From Rhodopseudomonas palustris (GTDB lineage: Bacteria > Pseudomonadota > Alphaproteobacteria > Rhizobiales > Xanthobacteraceae), in assembly GCF_013415845.1 (NCBI RefSeq), contig NZ_CP058907.1, forward strand, positions 3,534,001 through 3,598,000: DNA of 64,000 nucleotides, read 5' to 3'. Positions 1,054 to 9,794 of the stretch are shown here, piece after piece (positions within the stretch are counted from its first letter, which is position 1; every line of letters starts with the position of its first letter). Below the pieces are notes generated by a model that was not told the origin of the DNA, did not search any database, and was given only the letters and a program-made list of their open reading frames with translations. The position numbers and the translations under genes are program-made.

Positions 1054-2406
1054 TCATTCTTCCGGCGCATGTTCGATCGGATCGAACCGGTCGTGCTCGA
1101 GGCCGAGCAGGTTCCAGCTCTGCAGCATGTGCGGCGGCAGCGGCGCCGAGACGTCGATCACGCCGCCGCGCGGATGCGGGATCACGATGCGGCGCGCGAG
1201 CAGATGCAGCCGGTTCTGCAAGCCCCCGGGCAACTGCCAGTTCTCGATGTTGAAGTACTTCGGATCGCCGACGATGGCGTGGCCAATATGCGCCATGTGG
1301 GCGCGGAGCTGATGGGTGCGCCCGGTCACCGGCTTCAGCGACACCCAGGCCAGCTTCTGCCCCGAGGTTTCGACCACCGCGTAGTAGGTCACCGCATGGC
1401 TGGCGCCGTCGTCGCCATGCTTGGCGACGCGCATGATGCTGTCGTCCTCGCTCTCTTCCTTGGCGAGATAGGTCGAGATCCGCCCCTGCTTCGGCTTCGG
1501 CACACCGGCGACCAACGCCCAGTAGATCTTGCGCGCCGAGCGGTGGCGGAACGAGCCGGTCAGCGCGGTGGCAGCGAACCGGGTCTTGGCGACCAACAGA
1601 CAGCCGGCGGTCTCCTTGTCGATGCGGTGCACCAGGCGCGGCTTCTGGCCCTTGGCGTCGCGCAGCACTTCGAGCATCTGGTCGATGTGCCGCGTGGTGC
1701 CGGAGCCGCCCTGCACCGCGAGCCCGGCCGGCTTGTTCAGCACCAAGACGTCGGCGTCTTCGAACAGCGTCATCGCCTTTAGCGTCTGAAGCGTCTTCTG
1801 CTCGGCCTCGGACAGATGCCCGGGCAGCTTCGGCGTATCCAGCTTGAGCGGCGGAATCCGCACGCTCTGGCCTTCCTCCAGCCGGTCCTTCGAATCGGCG
1901 CGCTTGCCGTTCACCCGCAGCTCGCCTTTGCGGACGATGCGCTGGATGTGGGAGAACGACAGGCCGGGAAACCGCGCTTCGAGGAAGCGATCGACCCGCA
2001 TGCCGTTCTCATCTGCGGTGACGGTGACGGTCTCGACCTTGGTCGGCAGCGGCGCGTCGGGCTTGGCCTCGGGCCGCTCGCGGGTCTCGACCGGCGCCGG
2101 CTGCGCCGCGCGCGGCCTGCCCTCGCCCGGCGGACGCGATGGCCGCGCCGGACCGGCACCGAACCGCATTGGCTTGTCACCGGACCGCGGCGGCCGCGCC
2201 GCGCCCTCGCCGCGCGAGGTTTTCGCAGGCGCGCCGGCGCGCAGCGGCTTGGCATCGCGCGACAGCTTGGCACCACCGGGCTTGCCCGCGACAGCTTTGC
2301 CGGCGGCCGATTTTGCGGTCTTGGCGCCCAGCCCGGCGCGCGCCGGCTTGCCGCGCGTGCCGTCGGGGCCACGCTTGGCGAGAGGTTTCTTGACGCGGCG
2401 GCTCAT
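1054..2406 (-). CDS. RluA-family 23S rRNA pseudouridine synthase with long basic N-terminal extension
   Basis: Isomerises specific uridines to pseudouridine in rRNA. Residues 136-185 form an S4 RNA-binding domain (MRVDRFLEARFPGLSFSH, GELRVNG). The catalytic block follows, with HRIDKETAG at 260-268 whose Asp263 is the expected nucleophile, and RTHQLRAHM further on, as in RluC/RluD. Residues 1-125 are a Lys/Arg/Pro/Ala/Gly-rich low-complexity tail not found in typical members of about 320 residues, so the 450-residue total is long. The tail may add nonspecific RNA affinity, which is inference. The exact target uridines cannot be told from sequence. The start ATG at 2406 leads straight into the basic tail; the ATGs at residues 80 and 136 are alternatives. 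Confidence 0.9.
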   Translation of the reverse strand: MSRRVKKPLAKRGPDGTRGKPARAGLGAKTAKSAAGKAVAGKPGGAKLSRDAKPLRAGAPAKTSRGEGAARPPRSGDKPMRFGAGPARPSRPPGEGRPRAAQPAPVETRERPEAKPDAPLPTKVETVTVTADENGMRVDRFLEARFPGLSFSHIQRIVRKGELRVNGKRADSKDRLEEGQSVRIPPLKLDTPKLPGHLSEAEQKTLQTLKAMTLFEDADVLVLNKPAGLAVQGGSGTTRHIDQMLEVLRDAKGQKPRLVHRIDKETAGCLLVAKTRFAATALTGSFRHRSARKIYWALVAGVPKPKQGRISTYLAKEESEDDSIMRVAKHGDDGASHAVTYYAVVETSGQKLAWVSLKPVTGRTHQLRAHMAHIGHAIVGDPKYFNIENWQLPGGLQNRLHLLARRIVIPHPRGGVIDVSAPLPPHMLQSWNLLGLEHDRFDPIEHAPEE

Positions 2407-2724: not shown

Positions 2725-2849
2725 TTGGCCCCGAAAGAACCGGGCGCGGACCGCAAGAGTCCGAGCGCCCGGTTCCGGTGGTCACGCCGCGTCCGAGCGG
2801 GTTTGATGGTGTCGCCAAACGACCAATCGAACCTCAAGGACAAACGATC

Positions 2850-3917
2850 ATGACCTCCAAGGACAAGATAGCACGGCGCAAACTCTCGTTGCTGGAGCTG
2901 GCCACGGATCTTCAGAACGTCAGCCGCGCCTGCAAGGTGATGGGTTATTCCCGGCAGCAGTTCTACGAGATCCGCCGCAACTTCCAGACCTTCGGTGCCG
3001 AAGGCCTGATCGACCGGCTGCCCGGCGCCAGGGGGCCGCATTCCAACCGCGTCTCGGCCGAGATCGAGGCCGCCGTGCTCGACCACGCCCTGGTGCACCC
3101 GTGCCACGGCGCGGTGCGTGTCGAGCAGGAGCTGCGGCTGAAAGGCCTGCAGGTCTCCGCCGGCGGCATCCGCGGGGTATGGCAGCGCCATGGCCTGCTG
3201 ACCAAGCACGAGCGGCTGCTGCGGCTGGAGAAGACCACCGCCGAGCGCACCATCGAGCTCTCGGACGAACAGGCAAGGCTGCTCGAACGGTTCTCGCCCG
3301 AGTTCCGGGAGCGCCACATCGAGGCCCCGCACACCGGCAGCCTCGTCGCCGTCGACACTTTCTTCGTCGGCACGCTCAAGGGTGTCGGCAAGGTCTATCT
3401 GCAGACCGCGATCGACTGCCATAGCCGCTACGCCTTCGCCCGGCTCTACTCCAGCAAGCTGCCGGTCACCGCCGTGCATTTGATGAACAACGACGTGCTG
3501 CCGACCTTCGAGGCGAACGACGCCAAAATCGAGACCGTGCTGTCCGACAACGGCCGGGAGTTCTGCGGCCGGCCCGACCAGCATCCCTACGAGCTGTTCC
3601 TGCAGCTCGAGGACATCGACCACCGCACCACACGGGTGAAGCGGCCGCAGTCCAACGGCATCGTCGAGCGGCTGCACCGCACCCTGCTCGACGAGCACTT
3701 CCGGGTCGAGGGTCGCCGCACCTGGTTCGAAACCATCGACGAGATACAGACCGTTCTCGACGACTACCTGGTCGGCTACAATCAGCGCCGGCCGCGCCAG
3801 GGCCGCGGCATGAACGGCCGCACACCGGCCACCGCCTTCGTCGAAGGGCTGCCCACGTCACAGCAAAGGAAGGAGGGAAAGAAAGCCGGAAAACAAGCCA
3901 CCAAAGTAGCCGCCTGA
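2850..3917 (+). CDS. IS481-family DDE transposase
   Basis: A 355-residue transposase. The ATG at 2850 is preceded by CTCAAGGACAAACGATC, giving an AAGGA ribosome-binding site at good spacing, so it is chosen over an in-frame GTG at 2778. The N-terminal 120 residues hold helix-turn-helix segments (LATDLQNVSRACKVMGYSRQQFYEIRR). The rve integrase core shows D169 in VAVDTFF, D233 in LSDNGREF and E273 in SNGIVERLHRT, the DDE triad. The C-terminus has the family motif YNQRRPRQGRGMNGRTP, followed by a Lys-rich tail. The gene looks intact and may be active. Confidence 0.93.
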   Translation: MTSKDKIARRKLSLLELATDLQNVSRACKVMGYSRQQFYEIRRNFQTFGAEGLIDRLPGARGPHSNRVSAEIEAAVLDHALVHPCHGAVRVEQELRLKGLQVSAGGIRGVWQRHGLLTKHERLLRLEKTTAERTIELSDEQARLLERFSPEFRERHIEAPHTGSLVAVDTFFVGTLKGVGKVYLQTAIDCHSRYAFARLYSSKLPVTAVHLMNNDVLPTFEANDAKIETVLSDNGREFCGRPDQHPYELFLQLEDIDHRTTRVKRPQSNGIVERLHRTLLDEHFRVEGRRTWFETIDEIQTVLDDYLVGYNQRRPRQGRGMNGRTPATAFVEGLPTSQQRKEGKKAGKQATKVAA

Positions 3918-3937
3918 CGCCGCCCGCTCACCGCGGC

Positions 3938-3965
3938 ACTGTCAGCCGATTACCCTCTCTGTACA
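3938..3965 (-). repeat. IS481 right terminal inverted repeat
   Basis: Read on the minus strand it begins TGTACAGAGAGGG and ends CTGACAGT, matching the left repeat. The IS3 remnant starts at the very next base. Confidence 0.8.
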
Positions 3966-4165
3966 TCTGGGACAATGCCGCAATGGAGAGCTTCTTCTCC
4001 TCGCTCAAGACCGAGCGCGTCGCTCGCAAGACCTACCGCACCCGCGACGAGGCCCGAGCCGACGTGTTCGATTACATCGAGAGGTTCTACAACGCGACCC
4101 GACGTCATTCGACGATCGGATATCTCAGCCCCGTTGAGTTCGAACGCAGGCTGGGATTAGCTTAA
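3966..4165 (+). pseudogene. IS3-family transposase OrfB, C-terminal remnant
   Basis: Only the last 65 or so residues survive: WDNAAMESFFSSLKTE, then RDEARADVFDYIERFYNATRRHSTIGYLSPVEFERR, which is the C-terminal end of the rve domain of IS3-group OrfB including its final catalytic Glu (ESFFSSLKTE). The remnant begins exactly where the IS481 right end stops, and no upstream part of OrfB or OrfA exists left of the IS481. After the stop, GTCCACTGAACCGG at 4172-4185 looks like the outer end of the original IS3 inverted repeat. It cannot encode a functional transposase. Confidence 0.85.
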
Positions 4166-4195: not shown

Positions 4196-4226
4196 CCCCG
4201 CATCTCGCTGCGCTCATGCGGGCTAC
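4196..4226. repeat. half unit of the dispersed palindromic repeat
   Basis: Reads ccccgcatctcgctgcg then ctcatgcgggctac, the right half of the family seen at 2545-2696 and 9690-9775. Read on the minus strand its first bases supply the TAG stop codon of the TOPRIM-like gene. Confidence 0.7.
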
Positions 4227-4870
4227 GGTCCTGCAAACACTTCAGCCAGGTCATCTCTGAAAGCTTCGAACGATAGGGAGCGAGCCTTAATTTGCGAGAC
4301 CCATTGAGGATTTTCACGGATCTTGCGCGCAATGGTTAGACTATCCATCTCCTGGTAATCGGGGCAACGCGCCCGTCTAGCCTTATCCCGCGGACGTAAA
4401 TCGCGGGTGAGCCTCTCCTTCGCGTGCTCAATCATTCCCACGTTAGATTTTGAGTAGTCGACAAGCTCCCAACACGGACGCGTGGACGCCAATGCTAGAG
4501 GAAAGAGCATCCACCACGCTTCGATTTCCCAAGACGGATTCGCAACAACGAACTCCGAAACTCCCGCACCTTCAAGATCAGCGTGTAGTTCAGCACGTTC
4601 TTTTCGATGGGAAGGCTCGATCGCATCACAATCCCGATGAACTACCGCTATTACCCTTCGATCGCTTCTTTGAAGAACTTCGGTGAAGGCGGCAATATCC
4701 GAGGCCATACCACGCCTCTTTCTTGCACCTGCATTGCGACTCAAAATCAAAGGCTTTCTGCGCGTTTCCGTCCTTATTTCCGCGCCGTCTGGAGCCAAGG
4801 CCCCAATCAACATACAAATAGCTTGCTGATCATTATGATCCTCACCGAAGACCACAAAATGGTAGATCAA
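4223..4870 (-). CDS. TOPRIM-like protein (DUF4276/RloB-like), partner of the AAA ATPase
   Basis: About 215 residues. Translation probably starts at TTG 4870: GGTGGAGGACTTCC gives a GGAGG site six bases upstream, and TTG overlaps the ATPase stop as TTGA. An in-frame ATG at 4903 would only add eleven residues inside the ATPase gene. Near the N-terminus VVFGEDHNDQQAICML (Glu10, Asp14) matches the first TOPRIM motif, VVHRDCDA (Asp80, Asp82) matches the DxD motif, and NPSWEIEAWW at 111-120 resembles the conserved EIEAW block of DUF4276 and RloB proteins. These families accompany OLD/AAA ATPases in anti-phage systems such as PARIS and AbiL-type pairs. Nuclease or toxin action is inferred. The A/T content is higher than in neighbouring genes, and the stop codon lies in a repeat. 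Confidence 0.7.
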   Translation of the reverse strand: MIYHFVVFGEDHNDQQAICMLIGALAPDGAEIRTETRRKPLILSRNAGARKRRGMASDIAAFTEVLQRSDRRVIAVVHRDCDAIEPSHRKERAELHADLEGAGVSEFVVANPSWEIEAWWMLFPLALASTRPCWELVDYSKSNVGMIEHAKERLTRDLRPRDKARRARCPDYQEMDSLTIARKIRENPQWVSQIKARSLSFEAFRDDLAEVFAGP

Positions 4871-6069
4871 GGAAGTCCTCCACCTAGTGAACCAGAAAAC
4901 CAAAGCTCACCGAGTTCATAACCCGTACTGGAAGACAGCCGACGAACCATCTTTATATCTGGCCTGAAAGCAACGGTGGCTGAAGATGACACATCACGCT
5001 CAACTACTATAAGCTCGCTAGGGTCTAGCCGATTTACAAGAGCTGGGGAGTGTGTAGCTAGGATGATTTGCGTCCGATTAGACGCCTCTCGCACCCGCTC
5101 TATCAAACGATCAAGAGCGTGGGGATGCAATCCATGATCAATTTCCTCGAGACAAGTCAATTTGGGAGGAGCAGGATCATTCAACATTGCAAAAAGTGCA
5201 ATGGCCCGAATTGTACCAAAGGACGCACGAGCAAGCGGCGTAGTCCCACTCAAACCACTCTCGACTAGATCGATACGAATAGCGTCATCCGCGCCACCAA
5301 GCTGAACAAAGCGGAATCCACGAAATGCAGGCAGCACAAATCTAACATCTTCGCAGATGAGATCGAAGATGTTTGGATGCTCCTCTCGCAAGAAAGATAG
5401 ATAGGGAGCTAGATTTCGCGCATCCTGTCGCAATTGATTGGATGAAGGTGCCCGTGATGGGCGGCGCACTTTCTCAACATCAATTTCAAACAACCGAAGC
5501 TGCTCGAAAACCTGAGCAAGAGCCTCAACCCCAGACGCCTCGTATTCCTCGCCCAGACGACGGAGTGTAGCCAGACCGGTCGATGTCCCCTGAACAGAGA
5601 GGCGAGGATTACCCCTACGGCCACCTTCGCCGATCGCAACGAAGTTGATATTTTGGCCGCTGAGAGTGATGCGCCGGCCTCTTCCAGCAGTCCTCTTTAG
5701 AACAATTTCCTCGTTGCGGCGGATGAAGCCAACCCGATTCTTGCCTGCCCTCCAGCTCCAAAAGCTCAACGTGTATTCATCTGGAGCACGATTACTTGAA
5801 TGCTCTGTCATCATACCGGTGAACTTCAGCTTTATTGTCTTTCCTTTTCTCTCCTCGCCCCTGAACAAAATCTCATCAAATCCGCCCATCTGCTCGATTG
5901 CAGGGAGAAGGTCGTGCCTGGCAACACTACCGAGGAAATGAAAGACGTTCAGAATGTTGCTTTTTCCCGATCCATTTGGACCAACGAGCACGTTGAGTGC
6001 CTCGAGTTTGAGATCCAACTTGCCGAGACTTAGGAAGTTTTCGACGGATATGCTCTTGAGGGTTTGCAT
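4867..6069 (-). CDS. AAA family ATPase (OLD/SMC-like AAA_21), first gene of a putative defence pair
   Basis: 400 residues. The N-terminus LKSISVENFLSLGKLDLKLEALNVLVGPNGSGKSN carries the RecF/SMC-type opening and Walker A at 30-38. A signature-like segment is ASFGTIRAI near 282-290, Walker B is LTCLEEIDHGLHPH near 304-317, and the switch histidine is in ILATHSPALV near 336-345. The middle region is short and lacks a long coiled coil, unlike true SMC or RecN. Ends of this kind (LDPSELIVVERD) are typical of AAA_21 ATPases paired with a small TOPRIM or HEPN effector. The downstream gene overlaps by four bases, so the two are translationally coupled. Codon use is AT-richer than in flanking genes, which suggests transfer. 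Confidence 0.85.
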   Translation of the reverse strand: MQTLKSISVENFLSLGKLDLKLEALNVLVGPNGSGKSNILNVFHFLGSVARHDLLPAIEQMGGFDEILFRGEERKGKTIKLKFTGMMTEHSSNRAPDEYTLSFWSWRAGKNRVGFIRRNEEIVLKRTAGRGRRITLSGQNINFVAIGEGGRRGNPRLSVQGTSTGLATLRRLGEEYEASGVEALAQVFEQLRLFEIDVEKVRRPSRAPSSNQLRQDARNLAPYLSFLREEHPNIFDLICEDVRFVLPAFRGFRFVQLGGADDAIRIDLVESGLSGTTPLARASFGTIRAIALFAMLNDPAPPKLTCLEEIDHGLHPHALDRLIERVREASNRTQIILATHSPALVNRLDPSELIVVERDVSSSATVAFRPDIKMVRRLSSSTGYELGELWFSGSLGGGLP

Positions 6070-6231
6070 ATGAAGTCCGATTGATCGCCCATCCGCCTGA
6101 TTTTATTACGAAATCTATCTCTAAACTGTAAGCGTTAACATCTTATTTGTGATCCAGCAATGATCGGCCCAACTCGCGTCATCTGTCGGAGGCGGATTAG
6201 GCGCCGATATGCCGTGCCGCCCACCGGCCGC

Positions 6232-6560
6232 ATGGCGGTGTACGGCATCCAGCTCGATTTCGAGCAGGCGACGACCCGACTCGCAGCCGGCGCTGAACGA
6301 GAGCGCCAAGTATCCCGGCGCCAATCCCTCCGTGAAGATGATCGTCGCCAAGTATACCGATTGGAAGGGCGGCTTCGACTACAACATCGACCTGTCGAAG
6401 CGGCGCACCGCGGTAGCCGTGAAGAGCTGACCAGCATGGGCGTTGCGACTGCGCGGCTATGCTCGTTCGGCGCCGGGCCGGCAACGCCAGCGCGCAGCCA
6501 ATGCCAAGCGATTCCGACCGCGCGAAGAATCGCCGTTTCAAATTGATGAAGGCTGAATAG
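6232..6560 (+). pseudogene. OmpA-family C-terminal domain, multiply frameshifted
   Basis: Four pieces in changing frames together rebuild one OmpA/MotB-like peptidoglycan-binding domain. From 6232: MAVYGIQLDFEQATTR. From about 6293: LNESAKYPGANPSVKMIVA, then YTDWKGGFDYNIDLSKRR, which corresponds to the GHTD...YN..LS.RRA core. From 6421: EELTSMGVATARLCSFGAG. From 6501: a piece ending DRAKNRRFKLMKAE and a stop at 6560, the usual AKNRRVEL end. At least three frame changes are needed, and the His of GHTD is replaced, so it is decayed. Any N-terminal part (signal peptide, first domain) is missing. Confidence 0.72.
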
Positions 6561-6600
6561 TTATGCAAGACATTTTAGGCCGTTAAACCGCTGCTCATCT

Positions 6601-6643
6601 CCAGATCCCGGCTTCGCGCGCGGTGCGCGCGCCCCGGAATGAC
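6601..6643. repeat. dispersed palindromic repeat, short unit
   Basis: GC-rich palindromic stretch (gcgcgcggtgcgcgcgc) ending gccccggaatgac. The same 13-base end occurs at 18618-18630, and its complement at 18513-18525. Confidence 0.5.
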
Positions 6644-6724: not shown

Positions 6725-7402
6725 ATGCAATACGACGACGTGGTCCGCGGCCGCCGCTCAATCCGCGGCTACAAGCCTGATCCCGTGCCGCGGGAATTGA
6801 TCGAGGAGATCCTCGAACTGGCGATGCGGGCGCCCTCCTCGATGAACAGCCAACCGTGGAATTTCACTGTGCTCACAGGCGAGCCGCTCGACCGCATTCG
6901 TGCCGGCAACACCGAGCGCAACCTCGCCGGCGTGCCGCACAGCCGCGAATTCCGGACCGGGCAGCCATTCGCCGGCCCCCATCGCGAGCGGCAGATCACG
7001 GTCGCCAAGCAGCTGTTCTCGGCGATGGGGATCGCGCGCGACGATCAGGCCAAGCGGCAGGACTGGGTGCTGCGCGGCTTCCGCCAGTTCGATGCGCCGG
7101 TGTGCATCATCATCACCTACGACCGCGCGCTGAGCGACAGCGACGACACCCCGTTCGATTGCGGCGCGGTGACCAACGCACTGGTGAACGCCGCGTGGTC
7201 GCGGGGCTTAGGGGCCGTGATCAACAGTCAGGGCATCATGCAATCACCGGTGGTACGCGAACATGCCGGCATCGCCGACGATCAGGTGATCATGAAGGCG
7301 ATCGCGCTCGGCTGGCCAGACGACGAGTTCCCGGCCAACGCCGTGGTGTCGGAACGCAAGCCGGTGCACGAAGCCGCGCGCTTCGTCGGCTTCGACGGCT
7401 GA
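6725..7402 (+). CDS. nitroreductase family FMN-dependent oxidoreductase
   Basis: 225 residues. The start ATG at 6725 is preceded by TTGGGGGAAACC. The N-terminal VRGRRSIRGYKPDPVPRELIEEIL and the block ELAMRAPSSMNSQPWNF are the FMN-phosphate binding and substrate regions of the nitroreductase fold. The C-terminal KAIALGWPDDEFPANAV is the usual glycine-containing FMN-binding strand. Members reduce nitroaromatics, quinones or flavins with NAD(P)H; the natural substrate cannot be told here. It stands alone, with about 160 bp of decayed sequence upstream and about 200 bp before the next gene. Confidence 0.9.
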   Translation: MQYDDVVRGRRSIRGYKPDPVPRELIEEILELAMRAPSSMNSQPWNFTVLTGEPLDRIRAGNTERNLAGVPHSREFRTGQPFAGPHRERQITVAKQLFSAMGIARDDQAKRQDWVLRGFRQFDAPVCIIITYDRALSDSDDTPFDCGAVTNALVNAAWSRGLGAVINSQGIMQSPVVREHAGIADDQVIMKAIALGWPDDEFPANAVVSERKPVHEAARFVGFDG

Positions 7403-9689: not shown

Positions 9690-9775
9690 GTAGCCCGGAT
9701 GGAGCGAAGCGAAATCCGAGGACCGAACTGGTGGGAAGTCCGATCCCCGCATATCGCTGCGCTCATGCGAGCTAC
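9690..9775. repeat. dispersed palindromic repeat, complete unit
   Basis: Starts gtagcccggatggagcg and ends cgctcatgcgagctac, with the outer arms complementary (gtagc/gctac). It is the best preserved copy of the family also found at 2545-2696 and 4196-4226, and lies between two convergent genes. Confidence 0.75.
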
Positions 9776-9794
9776 CGCCGGCTAAGGCGCGGCA

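Follow-up and report, generated by a model that had tools for sequence, protein, structure and literature searches.

Two adjacent genes on the minus strand of the window, the 64,000-nucleotide stretch of Rhodopseudomonas palustris DNA analysed here, raise the question of whether they form an anti-phage system and whether that system is a new one. The original prediction read them as a RecF/OLD-like ATPase and a small TOPRIM-like effector of the DUF4276/RloB kind, lying beside IS debris, and proposed that the pair may be an undescribed variant. Gene A (4867-6069, minus strand) has an ATG start and an intact frame of 400 aa and encodes the AAA_21/RecF-OLD-like ATPase. Gene B (4223-4870, minus strand), a DUF4276-like gene for a putative TOPRIM-like effector of 215 aa, runs from a TTG at 4870 to a stop at 4223, and this start agrees with those of relatives, one of which (P0004) begins at the same alignment column. 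The predicted four-base overlap between the two is exact (4867-4870), and so is the predicted numbering of Lys36 in the GPNGSGKS of A and of Asp80 and Asp82 in B. The genes were also described as AT-richer than their neighbours, and both measures of composition agree: GC content is 50.6% in A and 51.5% in B against 64.4% in the whole window, and GC3 is 0.474 and 0.495, respectively, against 0.858-0.896 in the seven other genes that we measured. Both genes are foreign in composition. Upstream of A, no promoter-like site was detected on its own strand, and the opposite strand held one, compared with 1.2 expected by chance.

Judged by its conserved motif residues, A is an intact ABC/RecF-type ATPase, as its original RecF/OLD-like label had it. 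It matches AAA_21 in Pfam at 1.2e-33 and carries a P-loop (GPNGSGKS, with K36), a Walker-B-like CLEEIDHGLHP, H340 and a C-terminal tail, GELWFSGSLGG. Across the 35 A sequences that we aligned (A2), K36, E308, E309, D311 and H312 do not vary, and H340 is kept in at least 90%. A GELWFSG...GG motif lies inside the last 40 residues of 117 of the 120 A homologues inspected, these being the best 120 of 1298. When compared with the profiles of PADLOC-DB 2.0.0, A matches HEC-01A (PDLC04183) at 7.6e-127 over residues 4-399 of 400, far better than it matches AriA (2e-30), mad3 (1.1e-25) or AbiLi (2.9e-24).

For the small protein, a match to HEC-01B, a weak relation to DUF4276 and the failure of RloB together make "DUF4276-related HEC-01B protein" the most fitting name for B. 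Its PADLOC match to HEC-01B (PDLC04207) has a value of 4.7e-24 and covers residues 6-210 of 215, and HEC-01B models are matched by all 23 members, window included, of our first and narrower B alignment (A1). The predicted GE...D, DxD and EIEAW motifs are present as FGEDxxD (FGEDHND), HRDCD and EIEAWW, and in a wider alignment (A3; window B and 56 relatives at 27-56% identity) E10, D14, H78, D80, D82 and E117 are invariant across all 57 sequences, so these motifs are not due to chance. Against Pfam and NCBIfam, window B has no family of its own, with 0 Pfam families even at an E value of 10. DUF4276 (PF14103) is matched at E<=1 by 15 of the 57 A3 members, at best with 8.8e-4, and window B is not among them. 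Profile comparison with hhalign gave A3 a score of 36.8 (probability 53%) and A1 a score of 31.2 (26%) against a DUF4276 profile of three sequences; 20 column shuffles of A3 scored at most 22.9 against the same family. The A3 alignment spans 90-213, which is the C-terminal half, and leaves the N-terminal motif outside.

Of the predicted DUF4276/RloB kind of effector, it is the DUF4276 part that stands, weakly. We rejected an RloB-type effector because B has no Pfam or PADLOC match to RloB or AbiLii and because hhalign against a three-sequence RloB profile stayed at shuffle level (0.4% for A3 and 0.1% for A1). A comparison with the TOPRIM of 22 OLD proteins was likewise no better than shuffles (0.1%), a search of solved structures with B returned nothing significant (best E 0.67), and Toprim_3 was matched by one of the 23 A1 members, at 0.59. 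The invariant E10, D14, D80, D82 and E117 fit the TOPRIM pattern of a glutamate and DxD metal ligands, and this pattern together with the DUF4276 link makes a TOPRIM fold of B likely; under that reading, E10 and D80/D82 would serve as its metal ligands.

These profile matches bear directly on novelty. Both halves are present in PADLOC-DB 2.0.0 as HEC-01A and HEC-01B, so we rejected the proposal of an undescribed system: by its profile matches, the pair is HEC-01, an already catalogued candidate defence pair, and the window holds a further copy on a divergent branch. What is kept of the original module is its reading as a mobile two-gene unit of an ATPase and a nuclease-like protein with a weak DUF4276 relationship. 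The adjacency that characterizes HEC-01 is seen here as well, with A and B on the same strand and overlapping by 4 bases. HEC-01 is catalogued as an Hma-embedded candidate, whereas the window pair lies outside any Hma system, with neighbours judged by eye. Another genome of the family (L038) carries both halves of HEC-01 in the gene order and adjacency of the window pair, with an ATPase that matches HEC-01A at 2e-159 and a PF14103 protein that matches HEC-01B at 1.1e-79. Its B protein reaches 265 bits with the best HEC-01B model, compared with 83 bits for window B, as would fit a divergent branch.

Genes for DUF4276 proteins were found at 1e-6 in three of 150 genomes of relatives (L038, L039 and L040), all of them directly behind an ATPase that matches the A profile (1.7e-43, 1.1e-30 and 1.5e-27), with that of L039 split into two overlapping frames. 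In L040, from the same genus (G008), the ATPase matches HEC-01A at 3.1e-41 and the small DUF4276 protein has no PADLOC match; this pair is possibly another partner branch. HEC-01 is listed among the systems of Desulfovibrio piger in the available part of one report (PMC12724379), and a literature search of partial coverage returned mentions of HEC-01 but no study of its mechanism.

Do A and B stay together? A lies directly upstream of B, on the same strand, in all seven loci with profile support (L002, L003, L004, L032, L036, L037 and L067); beyond the window genome, searches for B had yielded nine loci, of which two (L005 and L006) were dropped because they gave no B signal by profile. By eye, L003 and L032 apparently represent one chromosomal context, so the pairing is seen in about seven independent contexts, window included. 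The original prediction had proposed comparing gene neighbourhoods in other genomes; by eye, the neighbours of the pair differ between loci, and its own two genes do not part. Across the class, a search of 385 genomes found that the same two, our own included, carry B and a close A (at E<=1e-60). An indirect comparison, between 70 entered from the 123 listed B homologues and the 120 listed A homologues, showed a longest-contig size common to both for 19 of the 70, against a mean of 1.2 and a maximum of 6 in 2000 jittered sets. Identity to the window pair, in six pairs, was 32-55% for B versus 45-61% for A and lower for B in each; by this measure, B diverges faster than A.

The window copy lies outside a defence island, with neighbours that by eye are core genes. 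Its surroundings are bounded on the left by a conserved pseudouridine synthase (S4 + PseudoU_synth_2; 1054-2406, minus strand) and on the right by a conserved nitroreductase (6725-7402, plus strand). Between the first of these and the pair are an insertion sequence (2740-3960, plus strand) that encodes a 379-aa DDE-type transposase (2778-3917), a 60-aa integrase-core (rve_2) fragment from a different IS (3983-4165, plus strand) and, at the left border, a piece of a dispersed genomic repeat (4196-4232). On the other side is the truncated remnant of an OmpA-domain (C-terminal) gene part (6221-6562, plus strand). The IS debris of the original prediction is thus a true description of the fragment at 3983-4165, but the element at 2740-3960 looks intact, given its 379-aa transposase, and occurs four times in the genome; the other three copies are 99% identical, which points to recent activity.

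The spot occupied by the pair varies within the genus. Of the 15 other genomes of the genus, 12 match the nitroreductase flank strongly, and all seven of these in which the wider region was compared (L025-L031) lack the DNA that makes up the pair. Five of the seven (L025, L027, L028, L029 and L031) show the left flank upstream, with L026 beginning too late and L030 being without it. The sequence preceding the nitroreductase differs among these relatives, with parts common to L025 and L031 and to L026 and L029. In two of these pair-less relatives (L026 and L028), the repeat piece 4196-4232 adjoins the nitroreductase flank. A whole OmpA-family gene occupies the same spot in G003 (L025:7688-8662), of which the window keeps the 3' part only, from 6221; what is missing of that gene was apparently replaced by the left-hand DNA, the IS and the pair.

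Short pieces of dispersed repeats (2617-2695, 4196-4232, 9690-9784 and 6596-6643) occur at the same borders in related genomes too, and short hits to 6596-6643 account for most of the 25-57 matches counted in each genome of the genus. Another genome of the genus has, at the same variable spot, a gene for a 1134-aa TPR-CHAT protein without a PADLOC match (L027:4806-8210). We considered the spot as a defence hotspot and rejected the idea because none of nine tested proteins from the corresponding region in relatives, hand-picked from its ORFs and including one from L030, where the left flank is not conserved, matched PADLOC at 1e-4.

The pair is rare, patchy and accessory. With the window genome counted, carriers of B number 1 among 61 relatives, 1 among 286 genomes of the family, 2 among 385 of the class and 1 among 398 in the sample of the phylum; these are lower bounds because the larger searches limited scoring to a few top candidates in each genome. 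Plasmid records gave no B match at 1e-5 and no A match at 1e-40, phage records gave no B match at 1e-2, and a first scan of viral contigs with window B alone gave nothing. The pair does occur on three predicted viral contigs. In L036, an integrase gene is followed by the pair and then by a C-terminal integrase piece (L036:3365-3682; PHROG 7.2e-5; Pfam 0.0097, below its cut-off) and an AlpA gene. In L037, an S24/CI-like repressor gene immediately precedes the pair and a CII-like gene is close by, and in L067 two unknown ORFs separate the pair from genes for an Rz-like spanin and an endolysin. Such cargo places are known seats of exclusion and defence genes. The presence of the pair on these predicted viral contigs ties this HEC-01 branch to phage genomes and suggests a part in phage-versus-phage exclusion; elsewhere, the cI gene of Vibrionales is named as a candidate hotspot in the accessible part of PMC9122126. 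Two details of these contigs deserve separate mention. The integrase piece behind the pair in L036, despite a full integrase ahead, suggests that the prophage end has received insertions more than once. The large phage protein encoded close to the pair in L067 (L067:6275-8974) resembles DarB-like antirestriction proteins over residues 3-225 and, by eye, is seemingly interrupted by an intein-like stretch.

Our answer to the first part of the question is that A and B probably form a mobile two-gene anti-phage module and that B is likely to act as a nuclease. In this model, A would oligomerize and hold B via the conserved GELWFSG tail, would sense a phage product or a state of the phage DNA and, on binding or hydrolysing ATP, would release or activate B. 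B, as a metal-dependent TOPRIM-like nuclease, would then cut nucleic acid, DNA or tRNA, so that phage growth stops, probably together with the cell (abortive infection). The leash through the tail of A, suggested by conservation, is a tentative element of this scheme that we would put at somewhat below even chances. More doubtful is the fuller picture of a separate HEC-01 branch that serves as prophage cargo at integrase, repressor and lysis spots, with a distinct HxDxD TOPRIM-like nuclease leashed by the GELWFSG tail and with a trigger and target unlike those of PARIS or AbiL. The window copy offers residues with which these readings can be tested: K36 and the GELWFSG tail in A, and E10, D80 and D82 in B.

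The division of labour in which A holds and senses and B cuts is modelled on PARIS and on TOPRIM_OLD toxins neutralized by AAA ATPases. AriB of PARIS cleaves tRNA. Both PARIS genes are needed, as are the ATPase and TOPRIM residues, and abortive infection is triggered by a phage protein, according to the accessible part of PMC9122126. In the part of PMC10440598 that is available, AAA ATPases are antitoxins of TOPRIM_OLD toxins in assays, AbiL relatives included, and a role in phage defence is described for AbiL and for AAA:TOPRIM_OLD toxin pairs.

That neutralization in assays (PMC10440598, in part) also lends itself to a different reading, in which the pair would be a toxin-antitoxin or addiction module, with B a toxic nuclease and A its neutralizer, selected for maintenance of an element rather than for immunity. 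Carriage on predicted viral contigs would suit such a module. We nonetheless consider it improbable: deleting either PARIS gene is non-toxic and both are needed for defence (PMC9122126, in part), and around the window copy no mobile element of its own was recognized, IS pieces aside; toxin-antitoxin and defence roles, moreover, overlap. A housekeeping role as a helper in DNA repair or recombination, with a RecF/OLD-like ATPase and a nuclease, seems to us quite unlikely in view of the patchiness, the foreign composition, the viral contigs and the neighbours that by eye are unlike between loci, even though A is a RecF/SMC-like ATPase, some pairs (window and L002) lie by eye among core genes and the OLD-family class Cran1 serves cell-cycle progression, not defence (PMC12796447, in part). 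That the pair has decayed into a non-functional remnant next to IS elements, as the IS insertion and the truncated OmpA-type gene at its borders might suggest, is very improbable, because neither frame is shortened and the invariant residues are retained in both.

The anti-phage reading also places the pair among other known combinations of an ATPase with an effector, of which PARIS and AbiL had been named originally as analogues with other effector families, a comparison that our results support. PARIS (AriA/AriB) likewise joins an ABC-type ATPase gene to a separate gene for a TOPRIM-like effector, and A matches AriA; however, AriB is a DUF4435 protein (PMC9122126, in part), and window B has neither a DUF4435 match in Pfam nor an AriB match in PADLOC. 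AbiL (AbiLi/AbiLii) and the AAA + RloB pairs share the two-gene layout, and A matches AbiLi, but AbiLii and RloB are unmatched by window B; the ATPases beside three RloB genes of relatives (L041-L043) bear only a remote resemblance to A (1.1e-7 to 2.8e-5). For MAD3/MAD4 of MADS, A matches mad3 and four of the 23 A1 members match mad4 weakly (best 2.7e-4), whereas window B has no mad4 match and no other MADS genes were recognized around it by eye; a partial search of the MADS literature gave no dedicated paper or single mentions only. HEC-04/IbfA also combines an ATPase with a TOPRIM and is antiphage (PMC12111858, in part), but it is one fused protein and a separate PADLOC system. In OLD classes 1-3, too, the TOPRIM is fused to the ATPase, whereas window A is an ATPase only (400 aa) and B is a separate gene. 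Membership in PARIS, AbiL, OLD or MADS was thus rejected on effector or layout. ATPase-plus-TOPRIM pairs are a recurrent bacterial answer to phages, and, among the systems compared, HEC-01 is the one whose A and B models both window proteins match.
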